Source: a virus
IMG/VR virus record: IMGVR_UViG_3300034167_000313
Location: 1-34,473 of that record
DNA: 34,473 nucleotides
Direction: 5' to 3' (one strand)
Shown here: piece after piece, positions 12,542 through 34,473 of the stretch
How the letters are laid out: the number at the start of each line of letters is the position of its first letter
Position numbering within the stretch: position 1 is the first letter of the stretch
Program-made: the position numbers and the translations under genes
The notes under the pieces: model-generated
The model's input: the letters and a program-made list of their open reading frames with translations, nothing else
Databases searched by the model: none
Told to the model about the DNA's origin: nothing

Positions 12542-12744
12542 TTTATCCATGTTTCATACTCTTTATTTGATTCAATTAAAAATATATCGTCTTTAATATA
12601 TCTAAGGTTTTTAATAGATTGTTCTAATGAAATAATTAAATCTAATCTACTTGGGTGGTTTTCTTTTATAAAATCTATTGAATCTTTATAAGAGTCAATT
12701 ATAAAATCAAGTTCCCTAAATGCTAATAAACTATCTATTGTCAT
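12538..12744 (-). CDS. 68-aa helical hypothetical protein
   Basis: The ATG at 12744 overlaps the stop of the SF3 helicase (ATGA). The protein is acidic and helical (MTIDSLLAFRELDFIIDSYK, SRLDLIISLEQSIKNLRYIK). It lies between the two helicases, so a replication-accessory role is possible, but no motif supports one. An upstream TTG in frame is not needed. Confidence 0.5.
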   Translation of the reverse strand: MTIDSLLAFRELDFIIDSYKDSIDFIKENHPSRLDLIISLEQSIKNLRYIKDDIFLIESNKEYETWIK

Positions 12745-14231
12745 ATCGTGTCCCAAATATCAAGGTCGCTTTCTGTTACTTCTTTAGGTGTAATAGACCT
12801 TTCTGTTATCATAAATTTTAAAGCTCCTCCAGGAGTTCTTGATTCGTAATCGTAACAAAAGAAATCACAAAACTTTTTTATAGATTGTGTTACCTCTTTT
12901 TTTGATTTTGCCATAAATGATTTTGAAATACTAAACTTATATTTGTCATAGGTTTCTTGACCAGATAACCATTCATTTTTTGGCAAATCTAAACAAAATT
13001 CGTAAAGCTCTTTGCCTAAATTAGCTTCCAACTTTTTAATTGGTAAAGAAATTGACTTGTAAGATACCAATCCATTATTAAGATATTTCTTTAAACATTC
13101 AATCATGTAACAATCGAAACGCGCCCACTCTAATTCATCCCAATCAGTAAATAAATAATGACCAAAAAACTCATAAGGTGTATTGTCAGCGTTAAAAAAA
13201 GGGGAAAGTTCTAACTCAAACTTTCTTGCATCGTGTGAATCTCCATTTCCTTTTAATACGTAGTTTGTAGATATGACTATTTTAGGCGAGTCTTCAATAG
13301 GTAGCTTAATTGTATCTTTTCCTTTGTAAGTTATATCAATGCCCTCTGTAATAACACTAAACAAGTTTTCAAACTGAAAATTCTTTTTAACATCGTCAAA
13401 AACCAATATCTGACAATCTGTTTTTACTGATTGATAAGGGAAGTCGCCACCAAACTTAAACTGTTTACCATCTATCGTTTGTAATTTCTTCATGTGCTTT
13501 AAAGCATTGCAGCAAATTCCTTTTCCAGACCGACCGTTAGGGGAGTCACTTATAAGCTCATCGTTTAAAATCACAGCTTTATTATTACCAGATGTTTTAT
13601 AGGAATGTATTAAATACCCAAACGCACTTTGAAAAGAATTATATCTAGCAACCGCAGTATCGTATTTGTTTTTGTCTTCTATCGATGAGTTTTCGTTTAT
13701 ATCAATACCTCCAGATATTTTCCAAATAAATTTTCTAAACTCTGAATCGTGGTGGTCTGATTCTACATACTTTCTCTTAATCACTTGATCCTCCCAAATA
13801 TTTAGATTAAAATCTGTATATTTCTTTAGCTCTGATTTATCTTTATTGACTTCTAACACACCGTTTTCATAAAAAATATATGCAGTATCTTTTGTGTCTT
13901 TAAGAACTTTTATTTCTTTACTGTCAATCATGCTCAAATAATCCCTTTTAAAGAACTTTATATTTGCAGTCATAAGATTAAACACGTCCTCGCTCAATCG
14001 TTCTTTTAAGATGTAGTTTAGTACAAAATCTTTAATTTCTACTTCGTCTATAATTTCTAAAAATATTCCATTTTCTTTTATAAGATTAAACGTACTATTT
14101 GAATTAGGTCTATTCTTAAAAAAATTTCTCATCTCTAAAAACCTTTTAAATTTATAGTTGTTTAGAGACACTTTTCCGTCTTGGTTTACTGACCAAAATT
14201 TATCCTCTGGGTTTATATTTATATTGTTCAT
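12741..14231 (-). CDS. SF3 helicase, phage replication initiator type
   Basis: The 496-aa protein has an uncharacterised N-terminal part (1-200) and a superfamily 3 ATPase. Walker A is PNGRSGKG (231-238), Walker B ILVFDD (275-280), motif C KIVISTNY (317-324) and the likely arginine finger lies in DARKFEL (R336). This matches the D5/NrS-1-type phage primase-helicase ATPases. A catalytic primase (for example DxD) is not evident in the N-terminal part. It lies next to the iteron-like region at 14936-15188, with only the HNH gene between, so it may load at that origin. The start overlaps the HNH stop by ATGA. Confidence 0.85.
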   Translation of the reverse strand: MNNININPEDKFWSVNQDGKVSLNNYKFKRFLEMRNFFKNRPNSNSTFNLIKENGIFLEIIDEVEIKDFVLNYILKERLSEDVFNLMTANIKFFKRDYLSMIDSKEIKVLKDTKDTAYIFYENGVLEVNKDKSELKKYTDFNLNIWEDQVIKRKYVESDHHDSEFRKFIWKISGGIDINENSSIEDKNKYDTAVARYNSFQSAFGYLIHSYKTSGNNKAVILNDELISDSPNGRSGKGICCNALKHMKKLQTIDGKQFKFGGDFPYQSVKTDCQILVFDDVKKNFQFENLFSVITEGIDITYKGKDTIKLPIEDSPKIVISTNYVLKGNGDSHDARKFELELSPFFNADNTPYEFFGHYLFTDWDELEWARFDCYMIECLKKYLNNGLVSYKSISLPIKKLEANLGKELYEFCLDLPKNEWLSGQETYDKYKFSISKSFMAKSKKEVTQSIKKFCDFFCYDYESRTPGGALKFMITERSITPKEVTESDLDIWDTI

Positions 14232-14758
14232 ATTAATTCTTTTAATTTGTTTTGATATACTTGGTGTGCTTCTAATTCTGTTTTAAACCTACCTAAATTA
14301 TATTTTATTTTATTATGTCTTATTTCTGCTCTCCATTTACTTCTGTGTTTATCCCAACTTACACCTGTATATTTTGAAGTGGCATTTTTTATGTCCTTAG
14401 ATACGTTTTCTCGATTAGTTATTATTTGTAAATTTTCTAATCTATTGTCTGATTGGTCATTATTTATATGATCTACTACCAAATCTTTGTTTTTATCTCG
14501 TGTATAATTTAAAAAAGCTGACACTACTAAATGATGGACTTTAAACATTTTTTTTATTCCGTCCTTGCTTAATTCTAAAGTGTAATAATTGCGATATTTA
14601 CCAGTAACGAAAGGCTTCATAATTATTTCTTCATGGTTTCTTTTACCCCCATTGCCTGAAACCCATTTTCTTGATAAAGACATAACTCTACCTAAATTAC
14701 TTACTTCATAAAGACCTTCATAATCTTTAATTGGTTTCCAAATTTCTTTTCCTATCAT
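14228..14758 (-). CDS. HNH endonuclease with NUMOD4 and AP2 domains
   Basis: With the ATG at 14758 the protein is 176 aa and has three parts. NUMOD4 spans about 5-25 (IWKPIKDYEGLYEVSNLGRV). The HNH nuclease spans about 70-120, with HHLV, VDHINNDQSDNRLENL and the NREN ending. An AP2-like DNA-binding domain spans about 125-170 (YTGVSWDKHRSKWRAEIR, then LGRFKTELEAHQVY). This is the standard layout of free-standing homing endonucleases in phages. It sits between the candidate origin and the SF3 helicase and is coupled to the latter by ATGA, so it is not an intron remnant. A TTG 18 bases upstream is a less likely start. Confidence 0.88.
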   Translation of the reverse strand: MIGKEIWKPIKDYEGLYEVSNLGRVMSLSRKWVSGNGGKRNHEEIIMKPFVTGKYRNYYTLELSKDGIKKMFKVHHLVVSAFLNYTRDKNKDLVVDHINNDQSDNRLENLQIITNRENVSKDIKNATSKYTGVSWDKHRSKWRAEIRHNKIKYNLGRFKTELEAHQVYQNKLKELI

Positions 14759-14795
14759 AATTTTTTTTAAATGCAAAAAGCCATCTTCAAAAGGT

Positions 14796-14854
14796 GCGTG
14801 AGAAAACCCTTATCAGATAGCTTTTTAAATAATTTCTTTATGAAGTTCTCACGC
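14796..14854 (-). other. Inverted repeat in the leader before the HNH gene
   Basis: GCGTGAGAA (plus strand 14796-14804) is the exact reverse complement of TTCTCACGC (14846-14854). The minus-strand transcript would fold with a loop of about 41 bases containing AGCTATCTGATAAGGG. It follows the -7-like box and precedes the start codon at 14758, so it may be a leader structure. A regulatory function is not demonstrated. Confidence 0.4.
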
Positions 14855-14859
14855 TTCGA

Positions 14860-14871
14860 TATGCAAATATA
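14860..14871 (-). promoter_or_regulatory. Promoter-like -7 box before HNH and SF3 helicase
   Basis: TATATTTGCATA fits TAnnTTTG and is identical to the element before the sigma gene. No TTG is found 19 bases upstream, so it may need an activator or another sigma factor. Confidence 0.4.
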
Positions 14872-15433
14872 GCAATAATATTTTAATTATATTCTATTTA
14901 TATTAATTTATAACGATTCTAAATAATGTTTTATTCATCTCTACACATTATTACACATCTCTACAGCTATCTCTACACACTTTAAGCCTTGTGTTTATTG
15001 GTGTTTTATTGTTTTTGTAGACTTGTAGAGATGTTTTTCAATATTTTTTTATTTTCACTGTTTCCCCTTTTATATATAAAAGATTGTTATTTTACCTCTA
15101 CATCTCTACAAAATCACGTTAACCCTTGTGTTTATTGGTGTTTATAGTGTAGAGTTGTATGTAGAGATGTGTAGACTTGTAGAGATGTCGTAAAATTAGA
15201 AATATTTAAAAAGTAAAAAGTGACGGTTTTTTTCGGTGTTAAAATATTGTTGTTTAGAGTGTTATAATCAAAAAGTCACTTTGTCAAGTTTTTTTCAGAA
15301 AAAAAATAAATGTTTTACTACTACTACTAAGGGCGATGTAACTTGGATATTTTATTTTTTGTTTCAAAACACTGATAATGAAAGGATAAAAGCCGAAATA
15401 ATTATTTATGTAATTTTTACTTTTTTACGAATC
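14872..15433. other. Gene-free intergenic region, AT-rich
   Basis: No credible gene on either strand. It holds the repeat cluster at 14936-15188 and, further right, an inverted pair AAAGTGAC (near 15217) and GTCACTTT (near 15275) with AT-rich DNA. The rest, about 15290-15433, shows nothing specific. Confidence 0.6.
14936..15188. other. Candidate replication origin with ATCTCTACA iterons
   Basis: The 9-mer ATCTCTACA occurs exactly at 14937, 14957, 14969 and 15102, and its complement TGTAGAGAT at 15024, 15160 and 15178. Degenerate copies lie at 15016, 15095, 15148 and 15170. Two longer direct repeats lie in the same block: a 20-mer at 14987-15006 and 15124-15143, and a 19-mer at 15016-15034 and 15170-15188. 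Between them are AT-rich tracts and a 14-base palindrome TTTTATATATAAAA (15068-15081). This layout fits iterons beside an unwinding element, next to the helicase genes. An operator array is the main alternative. Confidence 0.6.
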
Positions 15434-15463
15434 AAAAAAAAAACCGACTTGTTAGGTCGGTTT
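15434..15463 (-). terminator. Rho-independent terminator of the first early operon
   Basis: The minus strand reads AAACCGAC, loop CTAACAA, GTCGGTTT, then T's (15440-15434). The eight-pair stem is perfect. It lies six bases after the stop of the lipoprotein gene and closes the operon started at 17390. Confidence 0.9.
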
Positions 15464-32783: not shown

Positions 32784-33817
32784 TATACAACGCTATTAAT
32801 TAAATCATACGCAAATTCAAATTCCAAAATATAATTAATCTGTTTTGTGTTTATAGACTTATTCAGTTCAATTGATTTTGTTTTAAGGATAGCAGGATTT
32901 TCATCTACTAACACTTTTTCACTCAACATTAATTGCTTTAAGTTATCCTTAAAATCTTCTTCAACCCATCCACTATTAACCTTTATACTTTGCTTTCCGT
33001 TTTGATTGTACGTTGTTCTTTGACCACCTGTTAAGCTGTAATTGTACGGTTGCATTAAGTTGTAATCTTTGTTAGTCACCTCGATATTATCGTTTGATGC
33101 TTTAAAGAAGAACTCCCTTTGAAACGCACCATATTTATTTATGAAGTCAACTTTAACAGGTGTATACAAACATTCTTCAACAGGTTTAAAAGTCCATGTT
33201 GCTTGCATTACGTTTGAACTGTTTATAACCTCGACCGTATACTCTTTTGTAAATTCTGAATTATAACAACGTGGCACGTAATAAAAACCCAAGCCTAAAG
33301 ACGCACTTAAATAAACATTTCCATCAGTAACATTTGTCCATCTTATTTTATCATTTGCTGCAACGTAAACCATAATAAAACCTGCATTCGCGCCACTATG
33401 ATAGTAATAGTTTTTTTGGTCTAACAAGTAATTACCACCGTTATAATTAATACTATTAGAAAACTCTGAGTATCCATCAGTTGCAATGTAATCAGTTGTG
33501 TCTACTAATGTTTCTGTTGCTCCTACAGTCTTATATCTCTTTACCCTTACATTAAGTTTATCAACACACGTATAACTAACTGCAGCCGTTAAACTTGTAA
33601 CGTTAGTATATGCAGTGTGGTCGAAGTATTCACGAATGTAAGGTGAAATATCGTAGTAGGTTGTTGGAGCATTCGATGCAGGAATTGCTTTGCTAAGTGT
33701 GTAGCTCAAAGTTGGCGAGCCACCTAAAGCCCCAAAGCTAATAAACAATTCAATCTTTGTACTTACCTGACTTGCTTCATTAATACTAATAATATACGGT
33801 GACCTTGCTCTAATCAT
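32783..33817 (-). CDS. Tail structural protein, 344 aa
   Basis: The protein is beta-rich and polar (IRARSPYIISINEASQVSTK, then CVDKLNVRVKRYKTVG). It follows the gp10-like gene and precedes the 730-aa protein, sharing a single base at the junction (32783). It is likely a tail component, perhaps distal tail or baseplate. No named domain seen. Its first 82 bases are repeated at the left contig end. Confidence 0.6.
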   Translation of the reverse strand: MIRARSPYIISINEASQVSTKIELFISFGALGGSPTLSYTLSKAIPASNAPTTYYDISPYIREYFDHTAYTNVTSLTAAVSYTCVDKLNVRVKRYKTVGATETLVDTTDYIATDGYSEFSNSINYNGGNYLLDQKNYYYHSGANAGFIMVYVAANDKIRWTNVTDGNVYLSASLGLGFYYVPRCYNSEFTKEYTVEVINSSNVMQATWTFKPVEECLYTPVKVDFINKYGAFQREFFFKASNDNIEVTNKDYNLMQPYNYSLTGGQRTTYNQNGKQSIKVNSGWVEEDFKDNLKQLMLSEKVLVDENPAILKTKSIELNKSINTKQINYILEFEFAYDLINSVV

Positions 33818-34392
33818 TTCGGTTGTTTAATTGAATAGTTAAAAATCTTTTCTAAATCTATTTTTAAGTCATTGACTAATTCTTGAGGTAAACGTTTGTA
33901 AGCCGCTTCAAATGGTTTAGTGAAAAACAAAGTTGGTCTTATACCTTTCGCATAAATTGAACGTGTTATTATCCATGCTGTCGCATCGTACGATAAGAAT
34001 TTACCCGTTGACTTCTTTGTTTCGGGGTCACGTTGTCTAAATTGAAATTTACGTGCCTTAACCCATCTTTGTATTCCTTCCGTTAATCCTCCTTTTGCTC
34101 CCGTTCCGCTCCCAAACTTATAAGGTGAGTTAGGCGCTCTCGAACTTGAACGTTTACCCTTAACCCCTTTGTCTTGATAGTTACCGTACTCCTCCATCTG
34201 AAAATTCAAGAAGTAACCTTTAGCATAAACCTTTGCTTCACCTTTTAAAGAGTTGTAAAGTTTTCGCGTGTTGTTGTGGCTGCCAAAGGGTGCGCGTCCC
34301 TTAGTTAAGTTAGTACGAGCTTGTTTAATTACCGAAGCCTTGAACTTATCTAAAGCAGCTTGTAAGCCTGACTCCCTTAAATCTGCTAACAT
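33814..34392 (-). CDS. HK97 gp10-like tail completion protein, allele B
   Basis: The 192-aa right-end copy of the gene at 79-657. It differs at five residues (A19, K78, S83, S84, N88 here). Four of the five lie in the variable stretch at 78-88, between the conserved DKG and SPYKFGSG blocks. Despite about 50 base changes, almost all are silent, showing that both alleles are under strong purifying selection and come from real phages rather than sequencing error. The downstream 344-aa gene starts with an ATGA overlap. Confidence 0.7.
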   Translation of the reverse strand: MLADLRESGLQAALDKFKASVIKQARTNLTKGRAPFGSHNNTRKLYNSLKGEAKVYAKGYFLNFQMEEYGNYQDKGVKGKRSSSRAPNSPYKFGSGTGAKGGLTEGIQRWVKARKFQFRQRDPETKKSTGKFLSYDATAWIITRSIYAKGIRPTLFFTKPFEAAYKRLPQELVNDLKIDLEKIFNYSIKQPK

Positions 34393-34473
34393 ATTGTCAT
34401 TTCGTTTGGTGCTAATATGTCAAAGGTCATAGTCCAACCTGCAACCGCATCTGTGAACCTATCAACAAACGGC
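34386..34473 (-). CDS. Tail completion protein, C-terminal fragment cut by the contig end
   Basis: The last about 29 codons of the 152-aa gene (complete at 1109-651) enter from the right edge and stop at 34386, seven bases inside the gp10-like start. It is part of the terminal overlap and is not a separate gene. Confidence 0.85.
   Translation of the reverse strand, partial: PFVDRFTDAVAGWTMTFDILAPNEMTIC

Follow-up and report, generated by a model that had tools for sequence, protein, structure and literature searches.

A candidate two-module iteron origin beside an SF3/D5-type helicase, and a pseudoknotted leader RNA, in a Bacteroidota phage

The iterons of phage P4 are short and occur in both orientations together with AT-rich DNA. 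This layout of ori/crr is shared by the locus described here, which lies in an IMG/VR virus record from a Bacteroidota phage (34,473 bases; this whole stretch is referred to as the window). As in the P4 alpha system, the window encodes an SF3/D5-type helicase with a C-terminal winged helix resembling the P4 domain 1KA8, which in the window is a predicted fold. The P4 iteron sequence differs from that of the window, P4 alpha has a fused primase whereas none is recognised by Pfam in the window helicase, and P4 is a satellite while the window looks like a complete phage.

Both SaPI Rep and SCCmec Cch2 recognise their origins through C-terminal domains, and in Cch2, a D5-family helicase, the C-terminal part binds direct repeats (PMC7581432). 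The window shares this helicase family with SCCmec, where the iterons are AAGTG, but unlike the window the putative Cch2 origin consists of three 5-nt iterons downstream of the gene, and the primase-polymerase is separate. The PICI ori is likewise found immediately 3' of rep, in contrast to the window, where the array precedes the operon on its 5' side and is separated from the helicase gene by a leader and an HNH gene; placement at the 3' side, as in PICI, is seen in some distant cellular relatives. A further difference from SaPI/PICI is that the iteron sequence drifts across the phage group of the window. No characterised origin for Bacteroidota phages was found in the literature searched.

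The array and its surroundings

Essentially all genes of the window are on the minus strand, and read in that direction a lipoprotein-like gene ends first, followed by a terminator-like hairpin, the array, a promoter box, the leader, the HNH endonuclease and the helicase. The neighbouring features are:

15441–15463, minus strand: intrinsic-terminator-like hairpin, at the end of the upstream transcription unit and ahead of the array
14864–14871, minus strand: TATATTTG, Bacteroidota-type -7 box of the replication operon, assigned by consensus only
14228–14758, minus strand: NUMOD4-HNH-AP2 homing-type endonuclease (Pfam), between leader and helicase
12741–14231, minus strand: SF3/D5-type helicase, 496 aa, proposed initiator, with a C-terminal winged helix at about residues 396–478

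The array occupies the longest gap without a convincing gene, which extends from 14758 (the ATG of the HNH gene) to 15470 (the end of the next gene), and is composed as follows:

14937–14945, plus strand: iteron 1, exact ATCTCTACA
14957–14965, plus strand: iteron 2, exact match
14969–14977, plus strand: iteron 3, exact match
14987–15006, plus strand: 20-mer repeat CCTTGTGTTTATTGGTGTTT, copy 1, flanked by the opposed iterons of module A
15016–15024, minus strand: degenerate iteron (TGTAGACTT on the plus strand, 2 mismatches), opening the 19-mer at 15016–15034
15024–15032, minus strand: iteron 4, exact match
15043–15088, no strand: AT-rich centre between the iteron modules, candidate unwinding element, containing the palindrome at 15067–15082
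15094–15102, plus strand: degenerate iteron ACCTCTACA
15102–15110, plus strand: iteron 5, exact match
15124–15143, plus strand: 20-mer repeat CCTTGTGTTTATTGGTGTTT, copy 2, flanked by the opposed iterons of module B
15148–15156, minus strand: degenerate iteron AACTCTACA
15160–15168, minus strand: iteron 6, exact match
15170–15178, minus strand: degenerate iteron TGTAGACTT, 2 mismatches, opening the second 19-mer copy at 15170–15188
15178–15186, minus strand: iteron 7, exact match

The 11 iterons (seven exact and four degenerate) are thus arranged in two inverted modules, 14937–15034 and 15094–15188, each running from forward iterons through the 20-mer CCTTGTGTTTATTGGTGTTT to reverse iterons, with the 19-mer occurring twice. 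Between them, the stretch 15035–15093 has a GC content of 17% and contains the perfect 16-bp palindrome CTTTTATATATAAAAG. A preceding sequence-only reading had listed the seven exact and four degenerate copies, the two longer repeats, the palindrome and the position in the longest gene-free gap, all of which were confirmed. It had also named frequent occurrence of the 9-mer elsewhere as an objection, and this did not materialise: the seven exact ATCTCTACA/TGTAGAGAT sites all lie inside 14937–15186, with no others in the 34-kb window, while the chance expectation for exact ATCTCTACA is 0.21 and none of 100 shuffles reached seven or more. When 9-mer clusters were scanned over the whole genome without bias, the array scored highest, at 17.2 against a simulated maximum of 6.3. 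A nucleotide search of the array against annotated phages gave no match. Within the clade of the window (n = 11 members) the iterons and the AT-rich centre are constrained, with mean column identities of 90% and 91%, respectively, compared to 80% in the other spacers.

Two further observations were made on the record. An element common to many loci, TTATTTAGAATnnnTATAAAT, is located between array and promoter, in the window (approximately 14896–14930, minus strand) as well as in L005, L006, L036 and L043. The ends of the record form a 738-bp direct repeat (1–738 and 33736–34473) with 50 mismatches and no gaps, and as the copies are only 93.2% identical, the two versions of a 192-aa gene differ. 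The record probably represents a genome that is circular or permuted and was assembled from a mixture of strains.

Arrays and initiators in related loci

The helicase search gave 57 IMG/VR loci and 60 loci in bacterial genome contigs. Two-orientation 9-mer clusters were scanned for in 52 loci with a relative of the SF3/D5 helicase, the window included, the cut-off being the highest value in three sequences simulated for each locus. Unconstrained EM motif finding had been dropped in favour of this clustered scan on account of the low-complexity motifs it returned in many loci. In 39 of the 52 loci, the strongest cluster exceeded the simulated maximum and was located upstream of the initiator gene, at a distance of at most approximately 2.2 kb; among the other loci are several contigs starting at or near that gene. 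A search of related phages for the 9-mer in the same place had been suggested; the cluster recurs in that position, but its sequence differs by clade. The iteron is TGTAGAGAT in the clade of the window and TGTAGAAAGTT, CGTAAAAAGTT, CGTAAAAAAGT, AGTGGACTT, AGTGAACTT, AGTAATCTTT, AGTAAAAAGTT, AATAAGTTA, GTAGACTTT or AGTACACAT in others, with an (A/T/C)GT core recurring across these diverged motifs. Depending on the locus, an HNH gene, a methyltransferase gene or no gene stands between array and helicase, while the array stays, as it does in the HNH-less L014, L016, L034 and L036. Being missing or replaced in many relatives, the HNH endonuclease is considered to lie outside the core system.

Clusters were also seen beside distant primase-helicases in cellular Bacteroidota contigs, upstream of the gene in L066, L068, L070, L073 and L076, and downstream in L081, L083, L087 and others. 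In the isolated Bacteroides phage BT-TP2 (L135:5040–5288), nine GGTTACAAA-like sites in both orientations are found just 3' of the initiator gene, and a Flavobacteriaceae contig (L074) has both array and leader. IHF-like sites occur at 1.64/kb in arrays versus 0.24/kb, values that are uncorrected for AT content, with none in the window.

The helicase sequence displays the SF3 motifs Walker A (GRSGKG), Walker B (FDD) and motif C (STN), and its predicted structure matches poxvirus D5/E5-type SF3 helicases (Foldseek), with a model core of low confidence (residues 213–339 mostly at pLDDT <50). A Pfam scan of the 496-aa protein gave no match, and hence no primase domain was recognised; nor was a primase found among the scanned neighbour genes by Pfam or PHROGs. 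Since the distant relatives, of 770–830 aa, carry Prim-Pol or BT4734-like N-terminal domains, the window helicase appears to be a primase-less version. Modelled alone, its C-terminal domain (CTD) is predicted to be a winged helix (pLDDT 80). In VIA, the origin-binding domain of phage P4 (1KA8) and RFX5 tie as the best structural match to this domain; for 1KA8, with 71 aligned residues and rmsd 2.2, Z is 7.4, a value within the range of common winged-helix matches. In two loci (L039:4504–6306 and L044:5880–7672) the full helicase gene is preceded by an additional short ORF similar to the N-terminus of the helicase.

Across the loci, iteron type follows the CTD. The partial Mantel correlation of iterons with CTD given the helicase core was 0.27 (p 0.0006), in a type of test that does not fully remove phylogeny, compared to 0.03 (p 0.35) with the core given CTD and -0.07 with the N-terminal domain given CTD. 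An individual case is L024, a natural mosaic with the core of one lineage and the CTD and iterons of another: its core is 96% identical to that of L042, yet the two CTDs share only 48%, while the L024 CTD is 88% identical to that of L015. The iterons of L024 belong with those of L014 and L015 (motif distance 0.12–0.15), the distance to L042 is 0.95, and L042-type sites are missing. CTDs and iterons do not correspond one-to-one, since the AGTGGACTTT iterons of L023 resemble those of L014 although CTD identity between them is only 48%. As a possible specificity position, and as a lead only, residue 425 of the window protein, in the helix before the recognition helix, is I/L/K with CGTAAAAA iterons and S/T/N with TGTAGAAAG iterons.

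These comparisons lend strong support to the initiator C-terminus setting iteron specificity. From them and from the structural model we conclude that the iterons would be read by the C-terminus of the helicase and not by its N-terminus. The earlier proposal had been that the helicase or its N-terminal domain binds the sites; the N-terminal option is not supported, on account of this pattern of iteron similarity, which follows neither N-terminal domain nor core, and of the likeness to the P4 origin-binding domain.

A leader RNA beside the array

Pseudoknots are known from the leaders of ColIb-P9/IncL/M repZ and T4 gene 32. The window is similar in that a replication gene has a pseudoknot in its leader; it differs in having a linker of its own, AAAGAnATT, and a second hairpin that resembles a terminator. 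The leader follows the promoter and precedes the first start codon of the replication operon:

14774–14857, minus strand: pseudoknotted leader RNA, with P1 at 14857–14854/14845–14842 and S1 at 14854–14846/14804–14796
14839–14830, minus strand: leader linker AAAGAAATTA
14827–14815/14786–14774, minus strand: hairpin P3

In S1, the loop of P1 (14854–14846) pairs with 14804–14796 within the loop of the longer hairpin P3, which looks like a terminator and ends in a U-run, 15 nt ahead of the ATG at 14758. The leader recurs in more than 30 related loci with compensatory changes and a strongly conserved linker. In 28 of the 32 loci examined, none of 40 dinucleotide shuffles equalled the best H-type pseudoknot (mean z -5.9 over all 32); for L014, L016 and L017 the automatic choice of pseudoknot was a different pairing from the one read by eye. 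An alignment of 11 sequences shows the pseudoknot helix paired in all cells, with changes on both sides at five of its eight pairs. A covariance model, built with this helix left out, detected leaders in related loci at the corresponding position.

Nor is the leader confined to the replication operon: second copies lie before a lipoprotein-like gene (L006, 565–658) and, weakly (E 0.38), before a NUMOD4/HNH-like gene (L041, 3827–3919). A leader-like pseudoknot was also noted downstream, not upstream, of a helicase fragment (L057:965–1086). Three weak flavobacterial hits of the model in 397 genomes (E 0.0009–0.01; L129, L130 and L131) were set aside as unconfirmed, those in L129 and L131 looking like plain terminator hairpins. 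Rfam 15 gave no match to the leader at the gathering threshold and none on it at E up to 5, and a Pistol-like ribozyme topology was considered and dropped, with no Rfam match.

The 5' strand of S1 is copied again before the AUG in 7 of 24 leaders (at least 6 nt; about 4% in mismatched pairs). Such copies, which would allow an alternative pairing, lie just before the start codon in L006, L014, L016, L018 and L041. For the window leader a switch is not claimed, as this second copy is absent there. Attenuation, translational control and action as a separate small RNA are all possible modes of function. It is slightly more likely than not that this apparently undescribed leader represents a new class of structured phage RNA, in which the loop of one hairpin is paired to that of a second, terminator-like one, the two being joined by the conserved linker AAAGAnAUU. 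In a widespread group of Bacteroidota phages, whose origins and initiators would change specificity together, it would either regulate expression of the replication operon or take part in replication control as a small RNA.

The proposed origin and other readings of the array

It is highly probable, judging from the sequence comparisons, that 14937–15188 is the origin and the SF3/D5 helicase its initiator. The C-terminal winged helix would recognise the 9–11 bp iterons in the two inverted modules, leading to two helicase assemblies, one on each side of the AT-rich centre at 15043–15088, which would melt this centre and then travel outwards. Priming would be supplied by a host primase, as the window helicase has no recognisable primase domain. 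An origin beside the SF3 initiator had been proposed from the window sequence, and comparison with relatives supports it strongly: the array stays with the helicase while the neighbours change, and the repeat type follows the helicase. GC skew, which had been proposed as a check around 15 kb, does not support the site. The extreme at fourfold sites is near 18.7 kb, and the sign is wrong for a bidirectional origin at 15 kb; because the genes are all on one strand, the skew was judged uninformative or confounded.

Iteron proteins often autoregulate, and the array is positioned approximately 65–325 bp upstream of the operon promoter box, as would suit an operator at which the helicase or another phage protein represses or activates the promoter at 14864–14871 without any origin role. 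However, the array, at about 250 bp with 11 sites in two mirrored modules and a conserved AT-rich centre between them, is large by the standard of operators, and in L081, L083, L087 and L135 the array is downstream of the initiator gene and away from its promoter, making this explanation improbable. Clustered inverted repeats also mark partition, packaging and recombination sites. We nevertheless see very little likelihood of a parS-like, packaging or recombination site, given that the array is linked to, and matched in specificity with, an SF3 helicase rather than a terminase or recombinase, and that no ParA/ParB pair was recognised beside it. Finally, the sites might be bound by the adjacent HNH endonuclease through its NUMOD4/AP2 parts, as a homing target or self-protection site; in the window this gene, which contains DNA-binding modules, does lie between array and helicase. 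This is exceedingly unlikely, considering that the array is kept in the four HNH-less loci named above and that, per partial Mantel, it is the helicase CTD that the repeat type follows.

We conclude that the array is, as far as comparison allows a reading, a P4/SaPI-like iteron origin, very likely a variant of that known type, to which the natural specificity swap and the leader RNA add interest. With about a dozen related origins that differ in their iterons, and one core/C-terminus mosaic, material is already at hand for studying origin recognition by a D5-type initiator and the evolution of this specificity. The lock-and-key relationship between iteron and helicase is testable, since the repeats and one end of the helicase change together, and BT-TP2 offers a cultivable system for testing the origin model. 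The conserved pseudoknot leader would be a second, apparently undescribed control element beside the origin.
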